Below, piece after piece: positions 1 through 64,000 of a stretch of DNA of 64,000 nucleotides; the stretch's first letter is position 1; the number at the start of each line of letters is the position of its first letter. The notes below the pieces were generated by a model that made no database searches, was not told the origin of the DNA, and worked only from the letters and a program-made list of their open reading frames with translations. Origin of the DNA: Physcia stellaris (Eukaryota; Ascomycota; Lecanoromycetes; Caliciales; Physciaceae); assembly GCA_018902385.1 (NCBI GenBank), contig JABSSW010000006.1, forward strand, positions 434,001 to 498,000, given 5' to 3'. Made by a program: the position numbers and the translations under genes.

Positions 1-589
1 AATTTTGTTTTCGTCGAACGTGTGAAAAGTCGTGAAACTGAAATCGAATTCGAATTTTGACTGAAAAAAATGAATTGACGTCGTTATTTCGAAAAATTGA
101 ATCGACAAAAATTGATGAATTTCGTAAAAATTTTTATCGTCGATGAGAAATCGCTGATCGTCATCGTGTGAAAAATCGTAAAACAAATGTTGCGACAATT
201 TCAACAAACGATCAAGATGCACGTCGAATATTACTTGTGCGTGAAAACGATTCGCAACGAAATTCATCAAATCAAATATGAATCGTTGTTGACGTACATG
301 ATCGATCACGCTTTCAAAAATTACGCACGTTCGTGAAAACAAATCGTCGTTTTTTTCGTTCGCATTCAAATTAATCAGAAAGTCAAAAAATCAAATGAAT
401 AACGAATTCGAATTAGAGTTACGAAACGAACAAACGAAAAATTTAGAAATTTTCAATTCGATTTGTTTGTTTTAAATCAATCAAATCGTTAATTTCAATC
501 ATTCGTTCTGATCGACGTCAAGATAAAATCAATCAAATCGATTGTTTAAATCATTCGTTTGAACGATTTCTTATCAAAATTTGAAATAA

Positions 590-1350
590 CAAATGATAAA
601 CATATGAAATTTAATATTTGTAACGTTCGATGAGAAAAATTCAATGTTGCAAAAATGAAAATGATGTGACAAATGAATAAATTGCTATTCAATTGCGAAA
701 ATTCAATTTTATACAAATTTATAACAATTCGATTTTTCAGTTTGCGTTTATTCAAAATTTTCAATTCAACAATTATGATGTCATTTCATGATACATTTGC
801 ATATGATATTTAATAATAACATAATATGTGTAACGTTCGATGAAAAAAATTCAATTTCGCAAAAATGAAAATGATGTGACAATTGCGTAAAAAATGATTC
901 AATTGCGAAATTTTGAATTCATACAAATTTTTGAACATTTAACAACAAAAATTGCGCGTTTGTTTTTAATCGAATTTACAATTCAGCGATCATCATTCAA
1001 AAATGTAAATTATCATCGAAAATTCGTTGTTTGACGTTTTGAACGAACGCAATTCAACGTCGTAAAAATCAAATTCGTGTGATTAATGTGTGAATAATCA
1101 ATGCGATGTGAAATTTTGATTTCATACAAAATAACGATAATCGATTTTTTCAATTTGTTCGCGACAACATATCGTTCAACAATTATTTCAAATGAAATGA
1201 TCAAATAATCGTTATCGAAATTTTTTGTAACATTCGAAAAAAAAATTTCAACGTCGTCGACACGAAATTGATTTAACGACTATGTGCAAAGTCATTCAAT
1301 TGCGAAAATTTCACATTATTCAGAAATATGAACGTTCAACAACAAAATTT
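590..1350. repeat. Diverged ~200-bp tandem repeat, four copies
   Basis: Four successive segments begin near 620, 829, 1036 and 1227. They share the order: a TAACGTTCGATGA-like start, a TTCAACGTCG/TTCAATTTCG-like stretch, then GATGTGAC and an ATTCAATTGCGAAA-like stretch. The first two copies are closest, with long matching runs; copies three and four are much more diverged. Spacing is about 190-210 bp. No open frame runs through them in a consistent way. The unit is unidentified and could be an eroded subtelomere-like satellite or part of an LTR. I see nothing else in bases 1-590. Confidence 0.6.
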
Positions 1351-1518
1351 GCGATCAATCAAATCACGTTTAAAAGTCATTCGTTTTGATTCAATCGTTT
1401 CGTTTTATTTTATCGAACATTAACGTTGAATGTTTTATTTCATTTTTAAATTATTTGTTTTTTGCAATGCACATCAAACGATTCAAATTGTCAACAATCG
1501 CATTCGTTTTCAGTTTCG

Positions 1519-1700
1519 TCGAACAACGAATTCGAAACAATGAAATGAAAATATAATTTGCAAACAACATGAATTTAATCATGATGTTTTCAAAATATTA
1601 AAATCATGTTGTTTGCAAATTACATTTTTCATTCATTGTTTTGAAATCATGTTGTTTGCAAATTATATTTTCATTTCATTGTTTCGAATTCGTTGTTCGA
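1519..1700. repeat. Perfect 54-bp inverted repeat with partly duplicated arm
   Basis: Bases 1519-1572 and 1647-1700 are exact reverse complements (54 bp), separated by a 74-bp spacer. The right arm is also imperfectly duplicated in tandem: 1602-1645 resembles 1646-1690 and starts with the same ATCATGTTGTTTGCAAATTA run. The arrangement could form a long hairpin or cruciform. Both arms share the window-wide lack of GG and CC. Perfect arm identity in otherwise decayed DNA suggests a recent inversion-duplication or ongoing homogenisation. It is not flanked by any recognisable transposase. Confidence 0.8.
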
Positions 1701-1749
1701 CATCGAATCAATTGCAACAATTCGTTTCGATTATTACGCACGATAAAAT

Positions 1750-3810: not shown

Positions 3811-6510
3811 ATGTCAAATAAAATGTCGAATTTCGAATTGTTTTCGAATTTTTTTTCGTCTTCAATTCAAGATTTAGAAAACTCGTTCATCATGAGCGAC
3901 GATGACGATATGTCAATTGACAATTTTCAACAATCAATCATTTCAGTCTTTGATAATCATCACAAATTTCAATCATCGATAATTTCAACTTTTGATAATC
4001 GTCAAAATCAAATAATCAAATTGACGAAAGAATTTCGAACAAAGCATTCTGATTTTAATCTTCATAGCAATAAAAAATATGTACTTTGAAAAAAGAAAAA
4101 CTCGAATGCTTTTTTAGAATGATGAAAACAAATCAATCTTGATGAAAATATCTTGAACAAAACTCAAACAAAGTACAATAATTCACATTGATCGAACAAG
4201 AAAGATAAAATTGCTTCATGCTGACAAGAATTTGCTCAAATAGCGAAAATGTTTGACGAAACATCAATGATTGCTTGTAAAACATGTCATAAAATTCAAC
4301 AACATTCGTCAAACGCAAATGACGACATCAACGTCATGAACAAACATTTGAAAAGCGCAAAGCATCGTTTTAAAATTGAAAAAAGAAATCGAACAATGTC
4401 GCTTGACTTTCAGAAAATAATCGAGTCTTTCGAGAATGTCAATGTAAATCTGTTGAATAATGCATGTTGATAATGCATTTATTTATTTTTATTAGAAAAA
4501 AAGCAAACTCGATTTTCGTGCAACATTCGACGAGAAACTTTTTGAAAAACATTTAATCAAAATTTTTATTGTTTGTGATTTTTTTTATCGAACGATCGAA
4601 AACGAGCATTTTCGAATATGTTTGAAAATGAATCGATTCATTTTGAAACTATCACATCGCATCAAATTAAATCAACTTGTAACGAAAAACTATGAAAAAA
4701 TTCGTGATCAATTGAGAGACGAATTGAAAAATGCTGATCGAATTTTTATTTCGTTAAATGTTTGATTCAATCAACAAAAAATCGCTTATTTAGATGTGAT
4801 GATATATTGAATGAATATTAATTTTCAATATCAAAAAAAACTTATCGACTTTGTTTCGTTAAATGTTTGTCATGACGAAAAAGAAATGTTAAATTTTCTG
4901 CTGTCAATATTAAAATTTTATGAAATAACAAAAAAGCTAATGACGATCACGATTGATAATGCATTCAATAATCGTATTTTCAAACAATTATTGAATTTAA
5001 CGATGATTGAAATGAACATTAACTGAAATGTGAATCAAAATTCCATGAACTGTTTAATTCATGTGTGCAATTTAGTCGCACAGAATTTTATCAACTCGAT
5101 TGAAATCGAAACTATTAACGATGATGTTATTCAAAATTTGAAAAATGATCAAATCGATGACATCGAACAAAGTACAAAAATGTCAAAAGTCGTCAAGAAG
5201 ATAAATCAATTTGATAATGCAAAAAAGTAATGCATTTATTAACAAAATAATCAAATTCGTGCTTTGACGATTGTTATCAATTTTTTTTCGCAACGAAAAA
5301 TTCGCTTTGTGAAGTTACAAAAGAAAGCAGAAATTAAGCGTTCTCGAAAATTGAAACAAAATGTCAAAATTCGTTGAAACTCTTGCTATTTTATGATACG
5401 ACGTGTCTATCAGCTTCGACGATTCGTTGATAAATAAATTCAAAAGAATCGCAACGATGTCAAAATTGCCAAAATTCGAATATTTGATGATGATTGAAAT
5501 CAAATTTTATTTCTCGAAAACATGTTAAAAACATTTTACGAAATCACGTTGATTGTTTCACGAATCACGAACACTAATGTGCAAACTGAATTTAAAATTT
5601 TCAATTTTTTATACGATCATCTGAATTATCTCAATGAAACGATACGACAAAATCAATGTTTCGACAAATCATTAATTTTGATTGCTTGTGCGAAAGTCAC
5701 TCAAAAACTTTTCAAATATTATGCGAAAACAAAGAAAAATGATGAATTGATATACGATTTTGCTAATATTTTAAATTCAATCAACAAGCTATCGATTTAT
5801 GAAATTTGAAATGAAAATAACAATTTCGAAAAAATCACAAAAAAAAAAAGCATGCGTATATCAATGACGTTCGTAAACGATTTTTGAATTACTATCGAAA
5901 TCATTATGATGACAAAATATATGATGATTTTCAACGCGTTACTTTTCAATCGTTCGATAAAAAAATAATGCATCAAAATAATGCATTGAAATTCAATTTA
6001 ACAAAACAATAAATTTTTTCTATTAATTCGATTTTGCGATCGAATCGAAAATCGAAACAATCACAGAACGAAATCGAACGTTATTTTTTATATCAATCAT
6101 GAAAAGAAATTTAATTGACAATATTGAAGCGATAATGTTTCGAGTTTTTTTCGATTGATTCGAATGACGAAAAATATTTTGTTTTGTTCTGTTTCATCGA
6201 TAGAAATGAAACGAATTTTCAATTTGACACGTCGAATTTGTAAATATGATCGAGCAATGTTGAATCAAAAAACGATTGAAAAAACGATGATGATCAAATA
6301 CTATAATCGAACGATAAATGCAAAATTTAAAAATGTTGTTTCGAAAATTTGAAATTTAATAAAACGATGAAAAAACGAAAATAATGAAATTGCGATGAAA
6401 AATGCTTTTCGTCGTTCAATAGAAAAAGTGCTTCGTTTTATGATTTCAAAATTTAATAATAAACGATTTGAAGTGAAATTTGCAATAATCATCGATAATG
6501 CAAACAAATA
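3811..6510 (+). pseudogene. Degenerate hAT-family transposase
   Basis: Conserved landmarks of fungal hAT transposases appear in order. A BED-type zinc finger lies at about 4274-4365 (C-x2-C, then HLKSAKH). The RNase-H-like core has ITIDNAFNN at about 4945-4975, matching the family's DNASNN block, followed by NCLIHVCNLVAQ (about 5050-5085). A helical region follows (5522-5809). The C-terminal dimerisation domain, with RIFNLTRRICKYDRAMLNQK, lies at about 6190-6270 and is followed by IEKTMMIKYYN. The product would bind the element's ends and excise and reinsert it. The frame has many in-frame stops, largely TGA where the family has Trp, and Gly and Pro are missing. Paired-heptamer motifs interrupt the coding at 4457, 5214, 5965 and 6495, which suggests introns. 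It is clearly inactive. The family call is firm; the start at 3811 and the exon edges are guesses. Confidence 0.85.
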
Positions 6511-14459: not shown

Positions 14460-15283
14460 CAATTCAAAAAATATCGTTAATCGCGAAAAAAAAAAACATT
14501 GATCGAATATTCAAATCAAATTGTACAAAGCACAGAATGTCGATAATGTCGCTGTGATCAAATTCAAAAAAAATTTAATGAAAATTGTTGTTTGACTTGA
14601 ATTTGATGAAAAAAATCGTAAAACTTTGAAAAAAAATGACAAAAAAAAAATGTTCGATGCTCGTATTGAAAACGACAATCATGATAATGCAATCGAATAA
14701 TGCATATAAAAATTGCGATTTCTAATTAATTTTTAACGTGTTTTTTGAAAAATGAAATTTATTAACAAAACAAAAAAAAACTCGACGAACAAACACGACA
14801 AAACGATGTCAAAAAAAATGCAATCGAAATCATACGTCAAACAGTTAATTTCGAATTTTCGCAACAATCAATGAATACTGAATATCAAAATTTGTTGATT
14901 TCATTGATGATTCATTTCAGTTTCAAAACGATAAAAACATTGAACGAACGCAAAACGCAATAAAAAAATATCTGTATTCAATGACGAAATTGATTGCGCA
15001 ACGCGTTCTTTATGATGATAAAAAAATTCGCGCATTGAAAACGACGAGTTTTGTTGACGCGATGAAAAAAATGCGAAAAACAATTAAAAATCTTGCTTTT
15101 TCGCACAATGCGAAAAATCGAAATATTAAAATCGAATTTTCCAATGCGATCAAGAAAGAAAAAAATGCAAAAAACGACGACGATGACGAAAAAAAAAACA
15201 ACGTGAAAAATTCCGATGACGAAAACGAATTCGAAATCAGCGAAAATACGAACGATGCAAATTTCATAATGTTCGATTTTTAA
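14460..15283 (+). pseudogene. Unknown plus-strand gene, module copy 2
   Basis: Best-preserved version of the plus-strand module gene. The frame from about 14930 to 15283 runs through YLYSMTKLIAQRVLYDDKK, ALKTTSFVDAMKKMRKTIKN and HNAKNRNIKIEFSNAIKKEK. It ends in an acidic tail (NDDDDEKK, then SDDENEFEISENTND) and stops at 15283, shortly before a motif pair at 15304. The length after the last intron-like gap is about 115 residues. The pattern is basic helices followed by an acidic tail, with no signal peptide or membrane segment. I do not recognise the family. Confidence 0.5.
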
Positions 15284-15479
15284 TTTGATTAGATAACGAA
15301 AATGCATTATCATCATGCATTATCACTTGTTTGTGAATAATGATCAATTTTTTTTTTTTTTTCAAATTGCATTATCAAAACTCATTATTCATTATTCATG
15401 TCTGAAATTTCTTTCAGTATTTTCTTCTTTTCAGTAGAGTCTGTAAAAATAAAATCTATTTTTATTATTTTCTATCAAT

Positions 15480-15720
15480 AGTATTTCAAGTCAAATCAAG
15501 TTTTTCAAATCAAATTTCAAGTTCAAGAAAAAAGTTTGATTTGACGTCAAAACAAACTTCAAATCGAATATATCGATTTGAGTTTGAGCTTGACACTAAA
15601 ATCAAAAACTTGAATTTGACGTCAAAACAAGCTTCAAGCTCTACATTTCAAACTTGATTCGATTTTTTCGAGTCAAATTCTTGATTTTTTTCAAGTTCTT
15701 GACTCGACGCGATCAGTCTA
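15480..15720. repeat. Right subterminal repeat block of the hAT-like element
   Basis: Dense CAAGTT, CTTGA and TTTGAGTTTGAGCTTGA words match the block at 3290-3480. The longest shared run is TTTGAGTTTGAGCTTGA-like. The right end of the element probably falls between 15715 and 15730; I could not identify the target duplication. Confidence 0.6.
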
Positions 15721-18700
15721 ATTAAATCAACAAAATTTTTTTACGTCAAAAAAAACATCATATCAGAAATATCTGAACAGTGATCGAATCAATAATTTCG
15801 TCGTTGAATCAAAATCAAATTTTTGATCATCAATATTCGAAACATTTTTCTTTTTCGAGAATCTTTCGAAAATTCTATTTACATTCTTAGTAAAACGATT
15901 TTTTTTTCAGTTTTTGCGATCAATTCAATATCAATTTTTCAGAATTTTTCATCGAAGATTACGACATCAAAAATCTAATCATTACATCAAAAATTCTCGA
16001 TCGAATTCGAATCATTTATTTTTTTCGAGAATTTTTCAGAATTTTATTTATTTTATCAGTAATTTCATCGTTTTCTTTTATTTGCTCGATAGCTTCAATA
16101 CTCAATCAAAAAGTTTCGAAATTGACTCAAATATCAAGTCAAAAAGTTCACATATTTCGATTCAACATTACGTCAACATCGAAATTATTTTTTTTGTTTG
16201 AAAGTTCGTTCGAAAACATATTCATCGATTTATCAATTCAATGTCATTTTTTTACTTCGATGATAAATTCGATATTCAGTCAGAAAATCAATATCATTTC
16301 GAGTTTAAAAATTTTCAATATTCACATTGTTTCAATATCGAAATCATCTATTTTTTTGAAAAACATTGCGAAATTATATTTGTTTTTTTCAATGAACGAT
16401 CATATTTTTTGATTTCAACGATAATTTCAATATCGATTTCAAGAATCGTTCGAATTTTCATCAGCATCAAATATTGCAATCATTTTTTTCATTCGAGAAT
16501 TTTTCGATATTTTATTTATTTATTTAACAAATCAACATTTGTTTTTTGTTTCATTGTTAAATTCAATATCAAGTCTTCAACGTCTAAAATTTTCTAGTGA
16601 AATTTTTCGTCGCATTCGATATCAACATCATCTGAAATGTTTGAAAATATTCAAAAATCACATTTGTTTGTTTAGCAAATCGATTTTGATTTTCAGTTTC
16701 TGCGATAAAGTCAATATCATTTCAATTCAGAAAATTCATATCGATTTTTAAAATTTTTTCAATATTCAGTATTTTCATCAGTTCGTTCGCTCGAAAATCA
16801 ATTCGAAAACGTATTTATTTTCTTATCAATCGATTGTTTCTTTTCAGTTTTCACGATGATTTCAATGATTCAACATATCGATATTTTTTATTCAGAATTC
16901 ATTTTTGAAAATTTGAATGTTGAATTGTTCAATGAAATCGTGAATTTTTTGCAACATTTTCAACAATGTCGAAATCAATATTCGAAATCAAATATGCTCG
17001 AATGATTATCAACATGTTTCGAAAAATTTGTTCTCGAATGATTTAACGATCAATCGAAATTTATTTCTTGTATGAATTCGATATAGTTTTGACGAATGCA
17101 TTTTTTTTCAAACAAAACAATAATTCATCTTTTTCAATTTTTGCATTCGAGTCAACGTGCGAAACTTTCGAAAATTCAACAAATTCTATTTTGATCGTTT
17201 CGATTGTTTCGTTTATTTCGTCAAAAAAACAACAGAAATTGAAGATTTCAATTTCAAAATGTTGTCAATAATGTCAGTCAGATTACGAGAATTATTATTC
17301 GCATCGTTTTCAATATTTTTCATGTAATGTTCGAAATCAGCAAACATACGAATCAACTTTGCAATTTTTTGAAAAAAAAATTTGCGAAACTTTCGAAAAT
17401 TTAACAATTTTTGTTTTGATTATTTCGTCTGTTTCGTCTGCTCAACAGAAATTAAATGCTTTGAAAATCGCGAAAAAAACTAAATTCAACGCAGTCAAAA
17501 ATGTTAAACGAATCAAATCAAAAACTTTGAAAACAAAAAAAGTTGCAAAATCAACATCAACATTTCGAGATATCGATATTTTCGACTCAACTTTTACATG
17601 TGAAAATCGACAATTCAGCGAATTCGTGAAGTTCTTGCAACATTTTCAACAATGTCAAAGTTTGTATCGAAAATCAAATCTGTTCATGTTGTTGTTTATT
17701 TGTTTTTGAAATTTTGCTTTCGATATCTGATTTGTTAAACAAACAATCATGAAATCAACATCACTAAATGAATGAATTGAAATTTTACGAGTCGATTTCG
17801 CGAATGTCTCATTTGCAAAAGTTCAAAAAATCATCTGCATACGTGACGATTCAAATTTCGATTTCAAGAAAAGATTTCGTCAACATGTACGTAATCAACA
17901 TGCGAAAAAACGAATCAACAATTCGAATCTCATGATCAATGCAATCAAATTAACATGCGAAATCGTCGAAAAGTCAACGATTATCGATTTGTTCGATTCG
18001 TTTGCTTTGCAAAAATCGTTTGTTTTCTTTGCAACATCACGAAAACACGTATCGAAATCTGAAATGATTTTCGAAACGATTATTTTATCAACGAGTTCGA
18101 TTTTTTCGATTGCGACAATCAATAATGCATTACAATCGATGAAGAACGAGTCAATTCAATGTTTTTTTGTTTCGCGAATTTCATTTTCAACACTCGAATC
18201 AAAAGATCAAAAAATTCAAATTTCGAAACTCGTCAAAAATTCTCATTTCTCGATCAATGCAATCAATTTAGTATGTGAAGCAATGAAGATGTCGATAGTT
18301 GCATGTTCGTTTGTTTCGCAGAAATTCGATATCTTTATTGCAACATCAAAACAAAAATTCGAATCTGTCATGATTTTCGAAATCATCATTGCATCAGAAA
18401 ATTTATTTTTTTCATTCATTGCACTCGAAACTGTATCAGATTCGACAAAAAACACGTCAATTCAATGTTCATTTATTTCGTCGAAATCATCGTTTTCTCA
18501 AACGATCGAATCAGAATTTCAAGAAATTTCTGTTTGAAAATTTTCAGAATTTTGTTCATTTCTTTCAATCGATATAGTCAAGTCAATATGTGAAAGCAAA
18601 AAAAATTCAATTGTTATTTGTTCATTTGTTTCGTTTGTTTCGCAAATATCATTTATTTATTTTTTCAATTTTCAAAAAACGTTGTTACAGATGTCGAATC

Positions 18701-20035
18701 AATATTTTGTCAATTCAAAAGCATTATTTTCAATTTCATTCGTTTGATAAAACATTACGTCATCGATTAAAACAACAATTCGTTCGTCGTGCACATCAAC
18801 AAGAGCAAGAAATTCAAAAGCAAACAGAAATTGAAAAAACTATTAATCGATCAATTTCATCAGTTTGTTTGAATTTTTCGATTGCGACATCTGAAATCAA
18901 GTCGAAATCAACGAAAAAATCAACAACATGTCGACGTTGCAACAAAATATTCAATTTCAATAACAAATTTCACAAGCATGTACGCGAACATTATGTTCGA
19001 AAATTCGTCAAAAGTTTGAATTTTCGAATTTTCACATCAGAATTCACATACAAAATCATTGAAAAGTCAGCAAACATTCGTCTGTTTGTTTCGTTTATTT
19101 CGCAAAAATCATTTATTTTCTTTGCAACATCAAGAAGTCAGAAATTTTGATTTTCAACAATTTTTGAATCAGTCATCGCATCGACGCGTTCGAATCTCTC
19201 GATTGCATTATACAAAATCAATTCAAAGTCGATGAAGAGCGCAATCGTTAATTGTTCATTCATTTTTTCATCTATTTCATCGTATACATCAGTTCGAAAA
19301 CATCAAAAATTTTACATTCAGAAATTTTATTTGATTATGAATGATTTGCATCGCATGTTTGTTGAAAAATTTACATCATTTGATTTGCAACAACATCAAA
19401 ATCGTTGTCGTTTTTCGCAAAATTTTGATTTTCGTTAATTCGATCGATCACGTTCAATTTTTTCAAAAAAGTTTTATTTCACGATCGAAAATTTGTTCGA
19501 GATGTTCGATGAGAAATTCAGAAGAAAAAGTTTGTTTTCAGATCAAAATAACGTTTTTTTTCGAGAATTTTTTTCAGAACAGTCGCAAATGACGATCTAT
19601 TTCAAGTTTACAATCATTCAGAAATCGTCGATTAGTCAAGATTCGAAAAGTTCAAAATCGAAAAGTTTGAATCAACACAAATTTGCGAAATCAATTCGCA
19701 TTGTTTTCAGCAAAAATTTGTTTGAAAAATTGATCAATTTATTGTACAAATCGACAGATGTTTTTTGCGTCAAAAACAGATTTTTGCAAATTTTAGATTT
19801 TTACAAATCGAAATTTTCGAAGTTTCGTGTTTTTGTAAAAATTTCTTTTTTAATTTTCGTATTTTTTCGTTTTTTTTCGATTTTTTTTCTTGTTTTCGCA
19901 TTCGTTTCGATCGTTTCAATTACAAAAACGAATTGCGTTAACGTTTACGAACAAATCGTTTCGATCATTGATCGTGTCATTCAATAAGAATAATGAATTT
20001 GTCGTTTCGAAACGAAATTAAGAAAAGACGAAAAA

Positions 20036-40980: not shown

Positions 40981-40984
40981 ATTA

Positions 40985-43347: not shown

Positions 43348-43433
43348 TTATTTTTCGTTTTTTTTCAATTTCGTTTCGAAACAATCAATTGAATTTTTTT
43401 TTGTCGATCGACAAAATACGTGATTTCGATAAT

Positions 43434-47148: not shown

Positions 47149-47454
47149 TGTAAAGCATTCAGAGTTCAAATCGACAGAAAATATGATCGAATTTCGACAA
47201 AAGTGAGATATGTTGATCATTTGCAAAGCAAACATCGAATTCGAAGAAATGTTGTTTGCATTTCTTTGTATCACAACAAGCAATAAATCGAATGATTTGC
47301 AATTGAAACACGTTGCTCGATTTATTCGTACAATTGAACAGACAAAACGATTATATAATTGAAAATTTGCAAGACAATTAGTTTTGCAGTTATTAGTCTA
47401 ATCATAATATCGTTTTCTGTTATACATTTCTGATGTCACATTTCGTATTTTACA
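47149..47454 (+). repeat. 5' LTR of element H
   Basis: 306 bp, TGTAAAGCATTCAG to TTTTACA. Starts with TG and ends with CA, as LTRs do. Confidence 0.9.
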
Positions 47455-49934
47455 TTTTAATAATTACAATAATTTATCGATTAGCATCACTCGTGTATAG
47501 CAAACAATTCAACGATTGAACGTGTTACGTTCTCAACGTTCGATTCGAACAAGATATCGATTTTACAAAAGTTTGAACGAGAAACAGATCGAAAAGAAGA
47601 CTGTATACTATACAACTAAATATCGCAATCATGATTGATTGTATAATTTTGTTATCATTACATTGTTCAGTCTAGAAAGCGAGCTCGAGCTTGAAAAACT
47701 ATCTGAAGTTGATTTCAAGACAATGTTTCAAAAACAAATTATCTCGATGCAATGAAAAATCTAAAGCAAACAACAAACAATTTTCAACATTCGATTTCGT
47801 TGACATTTTCAGCGACAAGCGTCGATTATTTCAAGTCTCGATTATTCATGACAATGACGACAAATCAAAAACGTCAAAATCATCGAAAAAGTCTGCGCAA
47901 TTCGTCAAAACTTCTATTTAGAATGAATTCACTATATTCGAACAATCATGAAGAAACAATGCGACAGAATATCAAGAAGCATTTTCAAGAATTGATCGAA
48001 CGATGATTTCAACAAGAAAGCATAACAGAATATCTTTGAAAGAAAATTTCATGACGATTTCAATCGAAAACACGCTATCGTCAAATCGCATCGATGCAAT
48101 ATAATGATCTGAACATGAACTTTTTCGAGAAAAAGAAATCGCATCGATGCGATACATTTTCAGATCGAGAAACGACATGATTTCGAAATCGTATGAATGC
48201 AATTCAAAATCAAGAAAACGATAGAAAATTCACGTTCGATAAAGTTAATAGAAAATCAATCAAGATACACTGTATCGTCGACTTTTCGATTGCGTGAACT
48301 CAAGACAGATGTTGATTTTGCAGAAACTAATCATGAAAAAAACAACAGTTGAGTCAATTGATCACTTTCGATCAAAATTCACATCGTATAGTGAAGATTC
48401 TCAATCATCAAACAATCAGCAATAGCAGCAACGAGTTTCTCGCGACGAGTTTTGTTGACATTGACATCAAACGTTGTCGCAAAAAGTCTCGCATCGCTAA
48501 TTGCAATAGAGAAATCAATTCGAAGTAATGTCTTTTGTTGAATTCAAAGCAATTTCGTTTCAGATTTCTAGTCACGATGTTGCGACATTGAACAGCAATT
48601 AATTCAGATTATTGACGTTTGCTTCGTACGAGTATAATCTTCGAACAAAAACAGTCGCAGTCGTTTTTTGAAGAAAAATTTCAAAAAATTGATTTGAATT
48701 AGTCAGTTTCGTGAAATTGTCATGAATGCAACAAGATCAAAATGAATATATCGATCTTGACATTTCTTCATGCGAAATTTTTTCATCATGAATCATATCG
48801 AGCACATCGAATCGAAAGAATCAGTCGATTTTATTGTTTATAATCAGAATAAAAATTTGATCGTATTCGTACGAGTTTTTCATGACAAAAACAGAGTCTC
48901 GAACGAATCGTATAGCGAGCAACGTGTCGAGACAGTTTATTTCTATCGAAGATCGAAAACATTCGTAGAGAAAATTCACAAAGAGATTTACGAATCTGAC
49001 GAATTCTGAATTTGACGAACATACGATTTGCTCAAATGAACATAAAACAGATTTGACGAACATGCGATATGTTTGACAAATTCGCAATGAATCACGAACA
49101 TGCAATAGATTCGCAGTCGAGCAAAAAATCATTTCATAACTTTATTTATTTTTTATTCGAAGATGATTAACAATATTGAGAATATACTTGATTAAGTATC
49201 TAGAAAACGATCTTATCAGACTTTTCAGCATTTTCATTCTTATCGAATCTGAAATCGAGCAAGAAGATTTCTGACGAAACGTTTCGATTTATATATTACA
49301 ATGTATTCAAACATATACATTTCATGAAACATAATATAAATTCGTTTTTTTTCAAATTGTGTAAACGTAAAAGCAACAAACTTCGTCGTTTTTTTCGACG
49401 AGTGTGCAGACGCAATAACATGAATCGCTATACAAGCAACGAGTTACATCAAGAAATGTGCTCGAAATTCTCGAAGTTGTACAAGATATAAGCACAAAGA
49501 AACTTCAGTAAATTTGACTTTTTAATTTCATGCTAAAGAACAAGCAAAACTTCACACAGAATATGAAACGATTAGCAAAATTCAAGCGTCGACGAAACGC
49601 ACTTTTGAAAACTTTTACAAACATTCACTTTGCAGCAATTCGATTCGACTAAATCGTTCGTGTAAAAATCGACGTTCAGAACAAACAATAAATTCACAAG
49701 AAGTTTTGATCGTATCATCGAAATTTCAATCATTTCGTTCAGACAGCAACAATTTTGCGATGCGAACGACTGATTCAGATGATTCTGAAAATCATTGAGA
49801 AAAAAACACGTCAGTCGATTTCTGCAAACAACTCGATCAATTCGAGTCTGTCAGATGCGAAAATCACGACGATAGTGATTTTTCAAATTATTTCGATGAG
49901 ATTCAAGCAACGATGCTGAAGTCAAATCAGACGA

Positions 49935-50165
49935 AAAGCAAATATCTCGTGCTCGAATGAACTTCAAGTCAACAAAACTGAAAAAAGACTTCGTGCTCGA
50001 ATGATTTTCGAAAGAAAGTTGCAAATTCAGACTTCTATCAACGAGAAAATATTTCGTGTTCGAATGATTTCGTTTTATCTGAAGATTACGTTCTTCGAGA
50101 AATCTTCAATAAAGAAAAATTTCGTGTTCGAATGATTTCGTTTTTGTTCTCGATTGTGCATCAGA
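49935..50165 (+). repeat. Degenerate repeat array 1 in element H
   Basis: About four copies of a TTCGTG(C/T)TCGAATGATTT-like unit, spaced roughly 50-70 bp apart, at about 49948, 49990, 50050 and 50120. They are embedded in A-rich sequence. No continuous frame is evident. Confidence 0.6.
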
Positions 50166-50559
50166 CGTGATCATCGATGAATATAATAATATTGATAATG
50201 CGCGAATTCTCGAATCTGATTCATGAAATGATTGCGACAGAAACATATTCACGAATCTGATAAAAATTCTGTGCGCGATTCAAGTGAGACAAAAACTAGT
50301 TATTTCTGATATGTCACGCTCGCATTGACATGACGAAAATGAAATACTATGACACGAAACTGCTTGTATGTTTCATCGAGTCTTATAGAGAAAACGTCGT
50401 TCGTGCGAAACAATTTTCTGATCGAGCGCTTAATGTGAAACGCATACTGAAATCAATACGAAAATATTGTAAATCGAATCAAACAAACGAGATGATTCAT
50501 CGAACATCGAACACGATTTTAGCATGCAAAAAGCGATCATAAATTGCGAGACATATCGT

Positions 50560-51060
50560 CATACGTCAAGACATCTCGTCAGAATTTGAGCATGTGAACG
50601 AAGATCGAAAAATGTTACGAAGTCAAAAATTGAAAAATATATAGATCGTTTGTAAAGACATCTCGTCAGAACTCAAACATATTTTCACATAACATGCAAG
50701 CACGATTCAGAATCTGAGCATGTCAACAAAAGTCAAAAACTGAGAGAAATAAATCATTTGTAAAGACATTTTCTCAAGATTTAAATATATATTTCTTCAT
50801 GTAATGCAACAAATCGAAAGCGAAATATAAATCAATTGTCAAAACATCTCGTCGAGACTGAACATAAAAAGAAAATCAAATCACGAGACATGCAACACGT
50901 GCAAGCAAAGCACAACATCTCGTCATAAAATTTTAGCATGCAAACAAAGTCGAATGTTGCGAAAAAAAAATCGCAAACATCTTGACAGAATCTAAACATG
51001 CGAACATGAATCAGAGATTTGCAACAAACATCTCGTCACAAATTACACGATAAAATATTG
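50560..51060 (+). repeat. Degenerate repeat array 2 in element H
   Basis: About seven copies of a unit built on CATCTCGTCAGAA followed by GAGCATG-like sequence, at about 50568, 50650, 50765, 50844, 50922, 50975 and 51027, spaced roughly 50-110 bp. It is non-coding as far as I can see. Confidence 0.65.
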
Positions 51061-51499
51061 TTTTCGTTCAACGAGATTGAAATGAACTAATTTTACGTGA
51101 ATCTTGTAACAAACTATCAGAAAGTAAAGCATGAACTGTGTACTCACAATATGATGATCGCAAAAAATCTCATGTAACGTTACTAGATTTCAGACAGTCT
51201 GTCTGCAAAGCAAATATAATTTAATGAAAATATCATCGCTCAAAGTTCTGTCAACGTTTTTCAAAAAGATCAAGTTTGCAAATCAATGCATGAAAAGTCA
51301 CGATGTTTTTAAACATGCATAGTTTAAAACTCAAACAGTCAAATAACGTCTATGCGTTGACGTAAAAAGTTCAAACTAAAAGAAAGAAAAAAGTTTCGCT
51401 AAAATTCACATATCAGTTATAAAACATCGTCATTAACGAAAACACAATCACGAAGAAGTGATCATGTTATGAACAAATCATACAGCAGAAACGTATTTG

Positions 51500-51835
51500 A
51501 AAGTCAATTCATATCGCAACGTTTTTACGTGCGATCGTTTTAATGATGCAATCGATTTGAACAATCGTTTCAATATCGAGTATCGCGACGCGTTCAGCGT
51601 TCTGTAAATGCAATTCTTGATGAGACAACTGATTCGAATAGTCGTGTCAATATCGCGATCAAGTCTCGAACACGTCGTACAACGAGAAAATATTTAAAGA
51701 TCAATAGCACGACGAATGCGATTTTTGATGATACAATCGACTCGAAAACAATTCAATATCATGACGTCTGCAGATATAATTCTTTTGATAAAGCAATTGA
51801 CTCGAAAACAGTCATGTCAACATTTCGATTTCATG
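51500..51835 (+). repeat. Degenerate repeat array 3 in element H
   Basis: About four copies of a unit with GATGCAATCGA or GATACAATCGACTCGA, then a GAACAATCGTTTCAATATC-like stretch, at about 51544, 51620, 51728 and 51790. It lies just before the shared 80-bp segment. Confidence 0.55.
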
Positions 51836-51856
51836 TCACGATTTTGTGTTGCTTAT

Positions 51857-51945
51857 TGTTCAGAATTTACGACGCATGAAGAACTGAATCGTGTCAAAAT
51901 CATTTTCAGAAATTGCTGTTCGATTTAACGAAACGTTGAATATGT
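51857..51945 (+). repeat. Shared 80-bp 3' segment (copy in H)
   Basis: Core ACGACGCATGAAGAACTGAA. It is the copy richest in AG and CT of the four, so probably closest to the original sequence. Finding it in H links the pol-less H to the Gypsy elements. Confidence 0.75.
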
Positions 51946-52467
51946 GAATGTGAGATGAAATGCAAAAAATCGAGCAGATTTCGAAATCTGATGTATTCAA
52001 TGCGATCGCGTCTATTCGGCGTTTCTCGCGATTAATCATTTCTTTTTCGAGCAATTCATCGATTCGATATAAGAAATAGAAAAAATAAAAGATAATAGAA
52101 ATTCGAATTCAGAACTTTCTGTCATTCAATTAGTTGTCAATCATCAGATCGAGAATTGTGAATTGTACGAAATCAGATTCTCGATACTGAAAGCAGCAAA
52201 CAGTGAAATCATCAAATCATGCTTTTTTTGAGTCATTCACGAAGATGATTTTCAGATTTTTAACGCAAATTGATTAAAATCGAAATTCGATACGAAAATC
52301 ACGATCACAGTGATTTTCAAAATCAAAAAAGTTTCAAATGCGAAAATCACGATGACAATGTTTTTTCAAGTCGAGACACAAACACACAGATTTAGAAATT
52401 TCTGCTACAGAACAAATGAAAGAGTTTTGATTATCTCAAAAAACTTCGATGTTAAAAAGAAAACGCA

Positions 52468-52773
52468 TGTAAAGCATTCAAAATTCAAATCGACAAAAAG
52501 TATGATCGAATTTCGACAGAATTGAAATATGCTGATCATTTGCAAAGCAAACATCGAATTCGAAGAAATGCTGTTTGCATTTCTTTGTATCACAACAAGC
52601 AATAAGTCGAGTGACTTGCAATTGAAACACGTTGTTCGATTTATTCGTACAATTGAACAGACAGAACGATTATATAATTGAAAATTTGCAAAGCAATTAG
52701 TTTTGCAATTATTAATTTAGTCATAATATCGTTTTCTGTTATACATTTCTGATGTCACATTTCGTATCTTACA
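52468..52773 (+). repeat. 3' LTR of element H
   Basis: 306 bp, TGTAAAGCATTCAA to TCTTACA, preceded by an A-rich tract at about 52453-52466. Confidence 0.9.
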
Positions 52774-55388
52774 ATTTCTTTGAATGAAACAACGAATTCA
52801 AGAAAATCTATTTCGTCAACGAATCATTTGCATTTCTCAAAAACAATATATAGTTTATTTTTCTTAAAACGATCAAAAATTTATTTGACATCGTCGACAT
52901 GAATTTCGACGTTCATCGAGTAAATTACTATATCGTTCAAATATACTATGACGTTAATATCGAAACGAATCGTCAAAATTCGATTGATAAAATCTTGAAA
53001 CGTCGTCGAAACGTTAATGAAATCGAAAAAAAATACATTATATTCGAAATGATTATATCGAGTACGAAAAATTGTTTTTCATTCGTTTTCATGTTTGATA
53101 CGCAATCGATGATAAGCAACAATCAAATCAATGTTGATATATTTGACGATTTTGTTGAATCTATTTAGATTTTCATCGATTAACGATAAAGAATATCTAT
53201 TCTTTATCGTGAAAACATTAAAATCTTTGTAATTCACACATAGACGTAGATTATCGTTTTTTTTTTGACGAACAAAATAGATGTTTTTGCAAAAAATTGT
53301 GAAAATCGAATAAAATCGTTAGTTAAATGTTTCTCGATGTAAACACGTAATATTCGAAACTCATTTTCAAATAAAGAGTAAATTGATTCATGCGACGATT
53401 TTTTGTTTTTTTTTAAATCAATAACATGATCGTTTGAATCATGATTCGATAATTCGTAAATTTTATTTTCGTTATCGAGTTTTTCATACGTTTTCAAAAT
53501 ATCGAAAAACGTGATTTTGACATCGAGTTTTTTTTCATTTCAATCAAAACAAATTTTATTTGAATTCGTTTTGAAACGTGCATTTCATGCATGTCGAATT
53601 GTTTGTCAATATACACTCGTACGAACATGAAATACGTTTCAGTTTCGTTATCGATAACGTTTATGATCAATTGTTTTGATTCGATGTTTTCGATACGATT
53701 CGTCGTGAAAATGAAATGTTTTTTTTTGCAACGTCAAATTTTGATATTGTCGTCGTTTCAATTCATTTTGATTTTCGAAAACTGTATTCAAAACATGTTT
53801 AACGTTAAATTTCAGTTCAAATTCACGATCAAAAACGATTTCTCGAAAAAACGATTGATTTTTTTGACGTCTGACATTTCGAATTGTACGAAATAAACGT
53901 CATATGTTTTCAAACGATAATTGTCAATTGTTATTGCATCACAATCTAGAATTTCGAAACGACAAAAATCGAACTTTTTCGCATAAACATGATTTATCAA
54001 ATTAATTTTCGTCTTTGTATCGAATATTGTTTTCGATTCGTTTCAAATCTGATTTTTGTTTTGTATGTTAATTTTGATTTTAACGCACTTACGAATCACA
54101 AATTTTCTAAATTTTTTGCGTCGTTTTTTTTTTTGTTAGCATGATTTTTGTTCATGTTTGAAAAGAACGACGTATCGAAATCAAAATTCGAAAATTTTTT
54201 TTTTTTAACGATTTGAACGAAAATCATCAAATCGACTAGTTTTTTGATTGTTCAAAAATTTGATCAACGAAAATGATTTTGTTTTTCTTGTTTGTGCAAA
54301 TTTCGATTTGATGATTTGATTTGTCACAATTTATACAATTATTTTTGTTTTGAATTTTTTTGAATTCGTTAGCGAATCAACGATACATTCGAATATTTTT
54401 CGATTTGACTGACTCGTGATTCGAATTGATTTTGTTAATATTTTTGATTTTTTTATCTTTAGATTTCGCAGTTTTGAATTTCTCGTTCTCGTTTTCAAAG
54501 TTGTCAATATCGAACGAAATTTTACGTTTTTTGAATTTTTTGAATTCTTTTCTTCAGAATTTGAACGTTTTTCATACGTTTGAATCGTTCAAACAGTTTC
54601 GTCTTTATGAGAATTTTTTTTTTTTAAAAAGCATGCAGCGAAATTTCAAACGTAACTCGTCACGAAAATCGTTGAATTTCATTGTTTTCGTGAATTTGAA
54701 TTCGAATTTCAATTCAGCAAACATATTTACTCGTTCGACATTGTAATTTTTAATCGATTGATTGTGATTTTGTTTGTGTTTGCGATATTTTTTCAAAAAT
54801 TTTGTTGCAACGTGATTGTTCGTTCGATGTCGCTTTTCAAAAAAATTTTGAATTCGATTCAAATGTATTGTTTGTTTGAATGAAAATCGATTTTTGCGTT
54901 TCAAAGTTTGTTCGCATTGCTATCTGATTTAAAATAAATATCAACATATGCGATTTTAACTAAATTCGAAAATTGAATCATGTGATTCACGTTGTTTTGC
55001 GTGAATTGATTTTTCATTTGTTTGCAATATCTTTTTCACTTTTTGTAGTTTTTTTTTTTCATATTGATTCGATGTCGTTTCGATGATTTTCATGACGAAA
55101 AACTTTCAAACAAAATCAAAAGCAAAAATAAATGAAATAGAAACAAATGAAATAATGATTGCAAATTTCGAACGCTCGACAATTCGAATTTTGAATTTGA
55201 TTTTTTTTTTGTGATTTTTTTCGATTTGTTGTTTGTAATAGATCAATCAGAAAAATAAATCAACATTTTCGACAAATTCAAAAAACAAATCATTATCAAA
55301 ATTCGACATGATGTATGCGAAACAACAAAATTGTGTTTTGTTAAATATACACGAATGACATCATTCTGAAATATGATAACGATTAGAA

Positions 55389-56736: not shown

Positions 56737-59700
56737 TTATTGAATGACACGATCAATGATCGAAACGATTTGTTGATAAACGTTAATACAATTTATTTTT
56801 GCAATTGAAATGATCGAAACGAATGCGAAAACTAGAAAAAAAATCAGAAAAAGACGAAAAAGTATGAAAATGAAAAAAAAAATCTCGTCGAAAACATCGA
56901 GCATTTTGCACGATAAATCGATCAATTTTTTAAACAAATTTTTGTTGAAAACAATGCGAATCGATTTCGCAAACATGTGTCGATTCAAATTTTTCGATTT
57001 TGAATTTTTCAAATTTTGATTAATTAATGACTTTTGATTGATTGCAAACTTGAAATAAATCGTAATTTATATTTAATTTGAAAATGTTTGAAAAAACACG
57101 TTGTTTTGATTTTGAAATAGATTTTTTTTTTGAATTTTTCATCGAATATTTCGAACAAATTTTCGATGATAAAATGAAATTTTTTCGAAAAAGTTGAACA
57201 TGATCGATCGAATTGACGAAAATCAAAACTTTGCGAAAAAAATCGTCGATTATGATATTGTCGCAAATCAAATGATTTAGAATTTTTAACAAATATGCGA
57301 TTCAAATCATTCACAATCAAATAAAATTTTTGAATGTAAAATTTTTGATGTTTTGAAACTGAATCAAACGATAAAATAAATGAAAAAATGAACGAGCAAT
57401 CGACAATTGCGTTTTTCATCGATTTTGAATTAATTTTGTATGTCGCAATTGAAAAATTCGAGCATTTCGATAATAAAAATTGCGAAATTATTTTCGTCGA
57501 AAATATTTGACTTCGTGATGTTGCAAAAAGAATAAACGAAACGAACGAAACAAAAAAACATTCAATTGTTGATTTTTTTTTGATTTTACATGCAAATTCT
57601 GATGTAAAAACTCGAAAATCAAAACTTTTGATCGATTTTCGAACACGATGTTGACGTATATATTCGTGAAATTTGTTATTGAAATTGAAATTTTGTTTGC
57701 AACGTTTGCAAATTCGAACGCAAACGATTTGTTTAATCGAGAATTTTTTTATCGATTTTGATGCAAATTCGAATATTGATATTTAAAAAATTGTTCGTTC
57801 AATTTTCATTTTTATGCGAATGCGAACAATTTGAATTCGAATATTCGCGATCGATTTTGCGAAAATTTTTGCAATTTTTGCGATTTTTGATGCACTTTTC
57901 GTGCATTTTGACGTGATTTTGAATATCGCAATCGAGAAATTTGAACAATTCGATGAAACGAATTGCAAAAATATTATTGCATTTGTAATCAAATTTTTTG
58001 ATGTTGCAAAAAAAATCGATAATTTTTGCGACGTAAAAAAACATTGAATTAATTCATTTTTTTTCGATTTTGATACAATTTTTAGTGAATGAATTGAAAA
58101 ATGAATATTTTTTTGTGAAATGATTATTTTGAAAATTAATATTGATTCAAATATTTGTTTTAATGTTGTAATAACAATTTGCAATTCAAACGAAACGAAC
58201 GAATTTATAACGATTGATTTCTTTTCGATCGCGCATAGTAATTTGATTGCGTTGTTTTCGAAACGAGAATTTTTGACATGTTTTTTCGAATGTTGTTCGC
58301 TTTTATGTTTGCGAAACGATTTTTTGAAATTGAAAATCTCGTCGCAATGTCGACACGTTGATAATTTTTTCGTGAATTTTGATGTAATTTCGAGTGCAAA
58401 AGATTGAAAAATCGAACGTTTCAATAAAATGATTGTTTTGAATGTTATTGCAAATTTCAATATTGATTTTTGAAATTTTGTGAATGATTCATGCGATTTC
58501 TGCGAGACGAATGATTTTTTCTCGATTTCGTATATTAAATTGACTGCATCGATCGAGAAATGAAAATTTTCAACGAATTTCAAAATTTCATGATCGCGAA
58601 TATGTTCGTATAATTCGTTGTTGAAATTGAAATTCTGTTTGCAAAGTTTGCAAATCATTTGAACGTTTATGATTTCAAAATTTGATGTGTTTTCAATCAA
58701 TTTTGATACAATATCGAATGCATTTAGTTGAAAATTCAAACGTTTTGATAAAACACGTCGCGAAAATGTTTCTGCGAAAGAAAACGTTTTCGCTAAAATC
58801 GTATTGAAACGTTTCAACGATGTAAATTCTAATTGAAATTTGAATCATTCAGAAACGAAATCACAAAAACATTTCGACAATAAATTCAACAAATTTGACT
58901 TTCGATATTGATGTTGACATTGTTGAAAACTTTGTAAAAAATTCGCGATTTCGTCATACAGTTCAAAATTTGATTCGTTACATGATATTGAATCGAAAAT
59001 ATCGATATTTTGAAATTTTGATGTTGATTTTGTATCTTTTACAACATTTTTCGCGATTTTTCGATTTGTTCGTTTTCGAACTTTTGCATCTTTTTTTTGT
59101 TGTTGAAAAAAAAAACGTTCGTCAAAACTGTATTGAAAATATGTAAAAATTCGAAATATAATTGTTTTTGAAATTATTTAAAAATCGAATCATTGAAACA
59201 ATTGAATAAAAACAAAAATAAATGTGTTTTCGATATCGATACAAATGTTGACAATGTTCAAAATTTCGCAAAAAATTCGAAATCTCATTGAAATGTTTGA
59301 AATTTGAATTATTGTGTTTCAAATTTGAATCGAACAAATCGATGTTTCGAAACAAATCGTAAAAATCAAAATTGAAAAATAATGAAAATATTGTCGTTTT
59401 CAATTTTTGTTGTTTTTGCGAAACAAACGAGCAGAAATTTGTTGATTTTTCGAAAATTTCACAGAAAAATTCGAATGCAAATATTCGAAAATTTAAATTG
59501 AACGTCGTATTGAAATCAAATGAAAAAAACACGTTCGTTAAAATTATATCGAATTTTCACAAAAAAATGAAATTCGATTGATTTTCAAATCATGTGTTGA
59601 CAAAATCATAAAAAATTGTTTTCATTTTATTTAGCAAATTTGATTCACAAAATAAATGCAAACATTATTGAAAATGTTGAAAAAAATTTGCGATTTCACA

Positions 59701-60871: not shown

Positions 60872-61170
60872 AAGTGATAAAGCGAATCTAAATCAACGTT
60901 TGAAAAGAAGAAAATTTATTTGTAAATCGAAATTATCGCGTAAATTCGTCTGTTTTGAGCGTTTTTTAAGACACAACGACGAGTTTATTATGTTTCGTTT
61001 TGCACATTCACAATGAGTTTATTATGTTTCGTTGTTTTCGTTGAATGATCAAAACGATACGAATTTATTATGTTTCATTATCGAACATTTGACTTTTAAC
61101 TGTGAAAAAATCTTGTTTATTCGATGTTCGCGTATTTCAAACGAACATGACGTGAATGATTTCGATATAA

Positions 61171-61386
61171 TGTGAAATATTATGCAAAAATATAATATTA
61201 TTACATAATTACACGAAAATATCGAAATGAAAAAACAAATACAAAAAATCTGACAAAACATATATAGAAAATTTGATCATAAACGAAATTCGATTTTGTC
61301 ATTCGATGTAATAAAATAAAAATGTTAATTTTAATGATTGATCAAATGTTGATTTCAAATGTTGAAATCGATGCACGTTCGTCACA
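61171..61386 (-). repeat. 5' LTR of element I
   Basis: On the minus strand it runs from TGTGACGAACGTGCATCG to ATTTCACA, 216 bp. The target-site copy AAATG follows on the plus strand at 61387-61391. Confidence 0.9.
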
Positions 61387-62460
61387 AAATGAATATTGTT
61401 ATGTTCGCAACATGTAAACATTCTCGTCGAATTTCATTGATTTTCGACAAGAAAATTTATGAAACGAAAAAATGAATCAATGCATTATTGAACAGATTGT
61501 TAATAATCGATTGAAAAATATTTGAAATTATAATTTCAAATCGCGATTCAAAATTCATGTCGAATTTTTGACAAATGTTTTTCATCAAATTAGACACGAA
61601 ATTGTTAATTTCAATGACATATTATTCGCAAACGAATGATTCGTCAAAACGAATCAATCAAATTGTTGAAATTGTTATCAAATATTTCGTCATCGAATTT
61701 TCGAACATCGATTACATTTTAATTTTTTTTGCAATTCAAATTCAATTAAACAACACGTTTAACATCGTTACAAATTTATCACTCAATGAAATCATATACG
61801 AAATCAAAATCAAAAACGCGATATCGAATTTCATCGAAATTAACACAACAAATGTACAGAACTTGTCAACGCAACGCATGAAATATCAACGAAAAATTGT
61901 CGATATCACGAATTTTGCGATTATCAAAATCAAAATATATTATAATTTGCATTATATTTCGATTCGATTAAAACAAAACGAAAAAATCTATTTACAATTC
62001 AACAAAAATTACAAACTGTTTGACAAATCAAGTTCGAAATTATTTCAACAACGTTACGAATCATTTCGAATTTTTGAACGCATCGAACGTTTTGCGTATC
62101 GATTGAAATTGTCATCAACGTGACGAATTCATTTAGTCGTGTTTATTGCACAATTCGAATTAACATTTGTCGAAATTGATTTTTACGCGCGTTTTCGTTT
62201 TCATTATTTTGATTTCATTGAAATCGAAAATGATACGAATCAATACAAATTTTATGAAATCGAGAAATTAATCGACAAACGAATCAGAAAATACAACAAA
62301 ATTTTAATTATTCAATATTTGATTCGTTGAATGAACTACGATTCAAAATACGACGAATGACGAAATATTTCAAAATTGAACAACGTCACGAATTTCATTG
62401 AACAATACGAATTCAATCATTCGAATGATTTTGATGATCGCAACGACAAACGAAAAACGA
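61387..62460 (+). mobile_element. Gypsy fossil E, right part
   Basis: It resumes in the integrase core after element I. The C-terminal integrase runs over 61575-62123 (LLISMTYYSQTNDSSKRINQ; FRIFERIERFAYRLKL). A chromodomain follows at about 62235-62410 (FYEIEKLIDKRIRKYNK, then a YDSKYDEW stretch). The 62139-62330 frame links them. Chromodomains direct integration of this class to marked chromatin. The fossil ends near 62460. Its 3' LTR was not identified, although the following sequence resembles 9011-9180. Broken many times. Confidence 0.75.
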
Positions 62461-64000
62461 AAAATAAATAAATTGATGCATGATATGATTACGCATAATA
62501 ATAAAACATGAAATTCAATAAAAACATTGATTTTTTTTTTGATTGACAAATTGTTATGACACAAAATTAAATTAAATGATATGAAATATGACAACATTAT
62601 TTTGTTTGATTTTTGACAAAAATTCTGTCGTCATTTCATATTAAATGAATGATGATCAGACAATTGATTCGCAATTATTATACATAAATTGACATTTTGT
62701 CGTTCATAATTTTTACATCAATCAATTCAGACTTTACGCATAACACAAATGTTTCGAAACGTTTTCAAATTTCTTTATTGATCAAAACATTCGTATGACA
62801 TTTTTTTCGAATCATGATAATTTTTGAAACATTCATGTGACACGCATAAATTCATTTTACATATTATATAATGATTAAACGTTTTGCGATTCGAACGATG
62901 TTATATGTTGACATTTTTGAAAATAAATGTTTGACGTTTTCGAAATCATTGATCGAACAATCATTTCATTCACAATAAATTGATTTAATACATTTTGACG
63001 ATTGATATATGATATTTGAATTTCGTAAAAACTTTTCAATCAATTTTTGAATAAATACACGTCGATTTCGATGATTGAAATTTTTCGTTGATTGATGATG
63101 ATTTTATACGATGTATGCGTTCGTATTAATCAAATTCATTAATTCGTTTCGTTCATTTGATTTGTTCGAATCGTAATATCGTCAATTTATTTCGAAATTG
63201 ATTTGCACGATTCACATGATTTATATAAAGATTGTATTGCAAATTTCGAAATCATCGCGAAATTTTCACAACATGAAATCATGTAAAATGTTTTTATCAT
63301 TGATTAAAACGTATAAAACGAAACGCTGATTTGTTTGTAAAACAAAATTTGTTTTTCATACGATCGTGAAATTCGATTGTTGATTCGTCGATTGCAAAAT
63401 GATTTTCAAAAATAATAAACGAAAATGATCGAGTTTTAAAAACATTCAAAACGATTTCGATTTTTCAAAATCATGATGCATTGTTGTATGACATTTGTTG
63501 ATTAAATTCAACGTTCAAATGACGTTTAATGACATGATATCGATCGCGATTGAATGATGCATTGTGAAAATTTTTTGAAAATCAAAATGATTAAATTGTT
63601 GCGTTTTTTGCAAAATTCTGAGTCGTTTGAATGCGTATAGCAATTCATTGACGTAATTTTCTCATAATGAATGCATTTCAATTGATTTTTTCAATATGAA
63701 TTTTCTGATTGATGTGTTGAAACAATAAATCGAATATCGATTGCAAAAAAAACAAAAACAATTGAACGAATTTTCAAAACGTCATACAAACGTGATGCAA
63801 TTGAAATGATCGATAAATAAATGTAATAGAAAATGTATAATCAAATTCAAACGTTTAAATGACTTTTTTCTGTTTCAATACAATGAAACGTCGTTTTTTC
63901 GATTTCGAAATGAACGCGTTTGCATCGACACGTGTTTTTTTCTCTTTTTGAGCGATGATTAACTCAAATGTTGATTCAACAAATGACATGTTGTTTATAT
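62460..64000. other. Unassigned sequence right of fossil E
   Basis: No open frame or domain is recognisable on either strand. Bases 62591-62750 resemble 9011-9180 and may be the 3' untranslated region or LTR of E. From 62760 onward I see only AT-rich sequence with the same lack of CC and GG. Confidence 0.5.

Follow-up and report, generated by a model that had tools for sequence, protein, structure and literature searches.

Near-complete loss of CpC and depletion of CpT in a 64-kb domain of Physcia stellaris: a probable RIP-type hypermutation with an unusual cytosine context

What kind of process can remove practically every CC and GG dinucleotide from a long stretch of fungal DNA while CpA and CpG largely persist? 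The question is raised by a stretch of 64,000 nucleotides of the ascomycete Physcia stellaris (GenBank assembly GCA_018902385.1, contig JABSSW010000006.1, positions 434,001 to 498,000), here called the window and numbered from 1 to 64,000. The genome comprises 44.0 Mb in 147 contigs, and the contig in question is labeled C6 in this report, so that the window corresponds to C6:434001-498000. As argued below, the window is very probably a domain of nested retrotransposons that has passed through repeat-directed C-to-T hypermutation of the RIP (repeat-induced point mutation) type on both strands, with CpC as the foremost target, CpT as the second, and CpA and CpG nearly spared.

Loss of CC and GG and its cytosine context

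A full count of the window finds 6 CC and 2 GG in 64,000 bases, at the same eight positions that an initial annotation, made by eye from the letters alone, had listed. From base composition, 2168 CC and GG would be predicted, close to the roughly 2,000 estimated in that annotation, and the gene-rich DNA elsewhere on C6 carries about 7,460 per 64 kb. A plain composition effect was considered as the cause and is ruled out by 50 mononucleotide shuffles of the window (mean 2174, minimum 2075, against 8 observed). The longest run free of CC and GG extends over 36,805 bp (15213 to 52018); the longest in 18 normal 10-kb samples of C6 is 600 bp. The guanine-plus-cytosine (GC) content is 26.0% for the whole window, higher than the 23% or so first given, and it is only the core at 28001-42000 that has 22.9%. 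With the strands combined, the observed/expected ratios are 0.004 for CC, 0.26 for CT, 1.27 for CA, 3.33 for CG, 0.43 for TA and 1.47 for TC, which bears out the early description of CG, CA and TG as common and of CT and AG as reduced. Since C and G are nearly equal in number (8497 and 8158) and both CC and GG are lost, both strands must have been affected. The main parts of the domain are the following (all without strand).

1..64000: CpY-depleted domain (Y, pyrimidine) of degenerate retrotransposons, as far as readable, C before C or T having become T on both strands; it extends past the window
15214..52018: stretch of 36.8 kb free of CC and GG, from the dinucleotide count
28001..42000: most converted part (core), with no CC/GG and 64 CT/AG in total; C:T odds relative to normal DNA 0.012 before T and 0.52 before A
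46001..54000: part with weaker conversion, at about 31% GC; CC is gone and some CT remains, with odds at 0.22 of normal
5043 (5043..5044), 5469, 7133, 7774, 13108, 15141, 15213 and 52018: starts of all eight residual CC/GG sites, from the count

The closest CC or GG flanking the domain are at C6:429,497 and C6:498,133, which places it at about C6:429,498-498,132. Its edges are sharp against normal DNA of 49% GC: in 200-bp bins, CC and GG fall from normal to zero within 1-2 bins on the left, and the right edge spans about 400 bp. To the left of the domain, at about C6 426.2-429.5 kb, lies an unmutated island of 3.3 kb with normal CC and GG, between two converted stretches.

The context of the change can be read from composition. 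The 18 normal C6 samples were converted in silico under candidate rules, CpY to TpY on both strands among them, and the distance of the resulting dinucleotide composition to the window or the core was measured in bits. The distance to the core is 0.696 bits for the unconverted samples and 0.027 bits after conversion at CpY; all of 12 other context sets do worse, the runner-up being CpT alone (0.215 bits). Pure CpY conversion predicts a GC content of 24.3%, as compared with 22.9% in the core. Relative to normal DNA, the odds of C over T in the window are 0.001 for CpC, 0.069 for CpT, 0.71 for CpA and 1.17 for CpG; in the core they are 0, 0.012, 0.52 and 1.40, respectively. This series indicates that CpC was converted first and CpT second, and that CpA is somewhat worn in the most converted part. 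The state of the less converted part at 46001..54000 fits a conversion of CC before CT. In the core, where CpA odds are halved and those of CpG are not lowered, a weak CpA activity may have acted beside the CpY one.

The loss is not a genome-wide bias, under which, as the initial annotation had noted, GG and CC would be equally rare in host genes. Of twenty 10-kb samples from C6, 18 are normal (GC 47-53%, observed/expected CC 0.85-1.02), the exceptions being L017, which is largely converted, and L009, which adjoins the window and contains converted stretches. Outside C6, half-kb samples were taken from eight contigs, and 8/8 are normal. Sampled gene-rich DNA is thus spared, and repeats are hit: a converted 1-kb piece of the window, used as a query, occurs at least 40 times in the genome.

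Mutated copies, stop codons and the content of the domain

The rule can also be followed site by site in copies of a reverse-transcriptase fragment. The reference is L041, a fragment with normal GC, which was compared with six copies (L044-L048 and L051) that are 73-78% identical to it. Summed over the six, CpC has become TpC at 335/346 sites and CpT has become TpT at 320/379, as against 30/444 for CpA to TpA and 16/382 for CpG to TpG. The copies differ from the reference almost only by changes at CpY: in total there are 701 C:G>T:A differences and 38 others (9 transversions and 29 transitions in the opposite direction). In L051, 119/517 positions differ and all 119 are C:G>T:A, divided about evenly between the strands (54 as C>T, 65 as G>A), with similar proportions in the other five copies. 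The base 5' of the changed C hardly matters, either at CpC (ACC 96/96, GCC 92/97, TCC 93/96) or at CpT (ACT 64/78, GCT 84/108, TCT 72/84); triplets beginning with C were not used here, as their printed values mix two kinds. Which CpT sites were retained mostly varies among the copies; some pairs have more of them in common than chance would give (up to 7, where 2.4 would be expected). The remaining differences are for the most part common to L044-L048, which therefore form one subfamily. The copies seem to have been mutated largely, but not wholly, independently.

The six-copy sums omit L042 and L043 (59% and 55% identical to L041) and the L039 set, which belong to other families. With L042 and L043 included, the sums become 389/460 for CpC, 369/505 for CpT, 68/590 for CpA and 47/510 for CpG; the three members of the L039 set, taken separately, give 69/171, 65/193, 32/212 and 27/164 in the same order. 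Where fragments of other families retain some CC, the loss of CC exceeds that of CT. For instance, L042 has 5 CC/GG and 47 CT/AG, as compared with 58 and 64 in L041. Among the 18 fragments of the reverse-transcriptase comparison, L049, L050 and L054-L056 served for composition only.

Two reverse-transcriptase copies, L039 (C5:1166500-1167020) and L040 (C12:60290-60810), are 97% identical to each other, have normal GC, and have open frames of 1024 and 1151 amino acids; they escaped conversion even though they are repeated. They are separated by 14 differences of the C/T type, ten of them at CpC or CpT, a possible sign that conversion has faintly begun.

The coding frames carry the same mark. 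Of 36 frames of at least 100 amino acids in the window, 35 lack Gly, Pro and Trp; the initial annotation, which had ascribed this to all open frames, holds for these and fails for the frame at 14978-15316 (- strand), with two Gly. Under the CpY rule TGG is the sole codon that can be converted to a stop, and only as TGA, so an excess of TGA is predicted. In the reverse-transcriptase matches that were scored (150 of 527 candidates), in-frame stops number 249 TGA, 33 TAA and 3 TAG, and 10 rows are free of stops. CpA-type RIP would produce TAA and TAG from CAA, CAG and TGG, unlike the TGA excess observed. The 33 TAA are unexplained by the CpY rule alone; they could stem from a weak activity at CpA or from ordinary mutation. 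Composition, the copies set against their unmutated relative, and the stop codons all uphold the rule first proposed for this window, a change of C to T before a pyrimidine, strongest at CpC and directed at repeats.

To the extent that it is readable, the converted DNA appears to consist of degenerate nested retrotransposons, and many direct and inverted repeats lie within the window. The recognizable pieces are listed here.

22457..22906 (C6:456457-456906), + strand: reverse-transcriptase (RVT_1) match with 2 internal TGA stops, from a profile search
30000..31000, + strand: reverse-transcriptase-like retroelement piece of 1 kb, Ty3/Gypsy-type by eye
42565..43191, + strand: open frame with an Integrase_H2C2 match of 38.7 bits, above the cut-off, from a profile scan
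57783..58817, - strand: frame of 344 amino acids without Gly, Pro or Trp, with a sub-threshold C2H2 zinc-finger match, from a profile scan
61575..62123, + strand: open frame whose Tf2-1-like SH3 match, at 26.5 bits, is below the cut-off of 30, from a profile scan

The piece at 30000..31000, which is the query mentioned above, is matched in the genome by at least 39 more long copies at 91-96%, from a search in which 40 of 312 candidates were scored. Among seven other frames that were scanned, six had no match or matched unrelated families below threshold, and one gave a sub-threshold zinc finger. One 5.8S place was found among the 39 of 2644 candidates scored.

The frame of 344 amino acids has 42 relatives (P0122-P0163) among predicted proteins, all from environmental contigs in ENA. 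Of these, 34 are without any Gly or Pro and 40 have at most one of each, P0134 and P0135 having several; the 15,872 residues of the 42 include 8 Gly and 17 Pro. As a yardstick, Gly, Pro and Trp together make up about 13% of three proteins from the RID search described below. The relatives carry 87 Trp, which may stem from TGA codons that were read under another code by the gene caller. The same loss of Gly and Pro is thus present in other data sets, some of whose hosts may be of the same species as that of the window, and metagenome protein sets may contain fungal DNA converted in this way, in the guise of odd-code proteins.

Methyltransferase homologues and competing explanations

The initial annotation suggested a look for methyltransferases of the RID, Dim-2 or Masc1 type and for cytidine deaminases. 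A PF00145 profile search of the genome yields three genes, one DIM-2-like and two RID-type.

C3:340323: DIM-2-like gene, PF00145 with DUF7893 and a sub-threshold BAH match
C5:499307: RID-type gene, PF00145
C6:791557: second, divergent RID-type gene, PF00145, named RID-A here

Of deaminases, an exon-by-exon search of the genome at E 0.1 gave no match to APOBEC_N (PF08210), and the general deaminase family PF00383 has 11 matches. The protein set for the RID comparison holds 120 of 131 proteins, and the tree, built with FastTree, contains 112 sequences (P0001-P0109, P0111 and the two genome proteins; P0110 and P0112-P0120 were left out). The RID protein encoded on C5 belongs to a group with seven further members, Xylona heveae among them (support 0.68, or 0.997 without Xylona). 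RID-A, whose exons were joined by eye across inferred introns, falls into a separate clade of 39 with a support of 1.0; deeper branches are weakly supported. Its closest named relative is a protein from a metagenome-assembled genome of Heterodermia aff. obscurata (72%, among the best 120 of 131). By this likeness of RID-A the host, a filamentous ascomycete, is probably lichen-forming; for a fragment of its MCM7, the nearest named protein among the best 120 of 933 comes from Aureobasidium melanogenum (87%), and none of these carries the name of a lichen. RID-A retains the PPCQ, QNRRR (QxRxR in the family pattern) and GNAVPP motifs, along with an EET motif of the kind present in many other RID-like proteins. 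However, at the catalytic-loop position after PPCQ, Gln is found in 39/39 members of the RID-A clade, while 66/72 other RID-like proteins have His (the remainder being N in 4, Y in 1 and C in 1). By the presence of His after PPCQ, a criterion set in this report and not taken from a published definition, RID-A would stand outside the family; by PF00145 and the motifs it falls within it. An alignment with M.HhaI places the site in the loop behind the catalytic cysteine, a loop which we take to contact the DNA.

From these elements a mechanism can be proposed. Repeats would be subject to a RIP-type process run by a DNA methyltransferase homologue, and C before C, then before T, would be turned to T on both strands in bursts. 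RID-A would be the first suspect for the targeting of CpY, through the Gln in its loop. That this Gln for His gives the CpY preference is a conjecture. More broadly, it is possible, and put forward here tentatively, that in a probably lichen-forming lineage of ascomycetes a second RID enzyme arose, namely RID-A, and that the rebuilding of its catalytic loop led repeats to be mutated at CpC and CpT instead of CpA.

Several observations weigh against so simple a picture of RIP-type conversion at CpY. Over the whole window, CpY is the best-fitting rule at 0.143 bits and CpT alone is nearly its equal at 0.155 bits, because CT is only partly gone there. CpA is incompletely spared, as its core odds of about half of normal indicate. 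In the window's own family, 13 of the 28 pairs among eight loci gave aligned blocks, and in these pairs the sites that vary between copies are 175/190 of the remaining CpT, 1140/4536 of CpA and 613/4706 of CpG, that is, 25% of CpA as compared with 13% of CpG sites. Finally, unmutated repeats such as L039 and L040 exist, and therefore the process cannot have been constant.

The presence of methyltransferase genes and the graded states of the copies, with CC lost before CT, would also suit slow decay, in which DIM-2 or RID acts as a plain methyltransferase, 5-methylcytosine forms at CpC and CpT of repeats, and spontaneous deamination follows with no burst. This is unlikely, since other substitutions would accumulate in the meantime unless deamination were far faster than the background; L051 has its 119 C:G>T:A and no other change in 517 bp, and the 701 to 38 ratio in the six copies speaks to the same effect. 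We therefore infer a RIP-class process run by a DNA methyltransferase homologue in bursts. A cytidine deaminase of the AID/APOBEC type, acting on single-stranded DNA or complementary DNA (cDNA) of the elements, is more doubtful still. APOBEC3G does favor CC, but the C changed here is the one with a C or T as its 3' neighbor, the genome has no PF08210 match, and cDNA editing should affect one side only (G>A or C>T), in contrast to the even strands of L051.

Explanations that would do without a new specificity fare worse. Regions of RIP elsewhere, such as those of Cladonia rangiformis as far as the accessible text describes them, have a similar domain structure and low GC (PMC12542154), so that classical CpA-type RIP, or the CpG/TCG type of basidiomycetes, might be thought to leave such a composition after heavy AT enrichment. 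As the main process CpA-type RIP is refuted by the copies, in which CpA and CpG are changed at only 30/444 and 16/382 sites, and by RIP indices that lie farther from RIP than those of the genome's normal DNA. A target at TCG is opposed by C/(C+T) at these positions, at which C is kept in half of the cases (0.497 in the window). Both types are extremely improbable, in agreement with the misfit noted at the outset. An artefact of assembly or library, ultraviolet (UV) damage, or compositional bias of the whole genome is just as hard to credit: normal DNA lies beyond sharp edges on both sides, intermediate copies exist, and related frames free of Gly and Pro occur in other data sets. UV would be expected to hit C after T, yet C persists at 0.57 in TCA and at 0.50 in TCG.

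Relation to known RIP systems

In the accessible portions of the sources cited in this section, the order of preference for RIP in Neurospora crassa is CpA>CpT>CpG>CpC, and in Trichoderma reesei CpC is likewise last (PMC5496416). According to a kingdom-wide k-mer study, CpA is the common preference of RIP-like defences (PMC12543289), and mainly CpA changes are reported for rDNA pseudogenes (PMC5555474), M. graminicola (PMC4522978), Phialocephala (PMC5148876) and Monilinia, the last with CpC>TpT double changes as well (PMC8959702). Much CpT>TpT is described with RIPCAL for Tad1 of N. crassa and some repeats of S. nodorum (PMC2621366), and CpT>TpT and ApG>ApA are dominant in the retrotransposon alignments of an Ascomycota survey (PMC7882544); the CpT part alone is therefore not new. 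A RIP that prefers CpC or CpY and nearly spares CpA and CpG was not found in the open-licence literature, so far as its accessible text extends, in keeping with the early remark that no system of this specificity had been described. Set against these published orders, the preference is nearly opposite, and its new part would be the priority of CpC together with the near sparing of CpA and CpG.

Indices built on CpA reflect this reversal. The thresholds given for RIPCAL, again from the accessible text, are TpA/ApT of at least 0.89 and a second index of at most 1.03 (PMC2621366). TpA/ApT is 0.43 in the window and 0.65-0.75 in the genome's normal DNA, and (CpA+TpG)/(ApC+GpT) is 1.45 in the window and 1.18-1.33 in normal DNA, so that by both indices the converted window scores as less affected by RIP than normal DNA. 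Surveys that rely on CpA-based indices can thus miss such a defence, even where a domain of 64 kb is fully converted. To our knowledge, the determinant of RIP's cytosine context is an open question, and it becomes directly testable in a genome that has both a reversed preference and a RID paralogue whose catalytic loop carries a clade-specific change. If the role proposed for RID-A is true, it would amount to a second dialect of RIP, with TGA as the only stops, codons for Gly, Pro and Trp erased, CpG spared, and a negative result on common RIP indices.

Among known systems, RIP of Cladonia rangiformis is alike in its large AT-rich domains of transposable elements with very sharp borders and in its RID and DIM-2 homologues; it differs in a low-GC peak at about 16%, compared with 24% from pure CpY conversion here, and the words 'dinucleotide' and 'CpA' do not occur in the accessible text of that paper (PMC12542154). 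The RIP-like mutation of Basidiomycota at CpG/TpCpG (Pucciniomycotina, Rhizoctonia) is, as far as the source is accessible, likewise a context-biased C>T change (PMC4014442). On the other hand, CpG is kept in the window, as its observed/expected ratio, the copies and the TCG positions all indicate. Within the RID family, RID-A shares the conserved motifs and stands apart in its own clade of 39 and in the Gln that replaces the loop His. The closest likeness is to RIP of Pezizomycotina (Neurospora, Trichoderma): nearly all changes are C:G>T:A, they occur on both strands, repeats are hit and genes spared, borders are sharp, and DIM-2-like and RID-type genes are present in the genome studied. The difference lies in the context, since CpC here precedes CpT and the canonical target CpA is nearly spared along with CpG, while the published orders, in the accessible text, end with CpC (PMC5496416).

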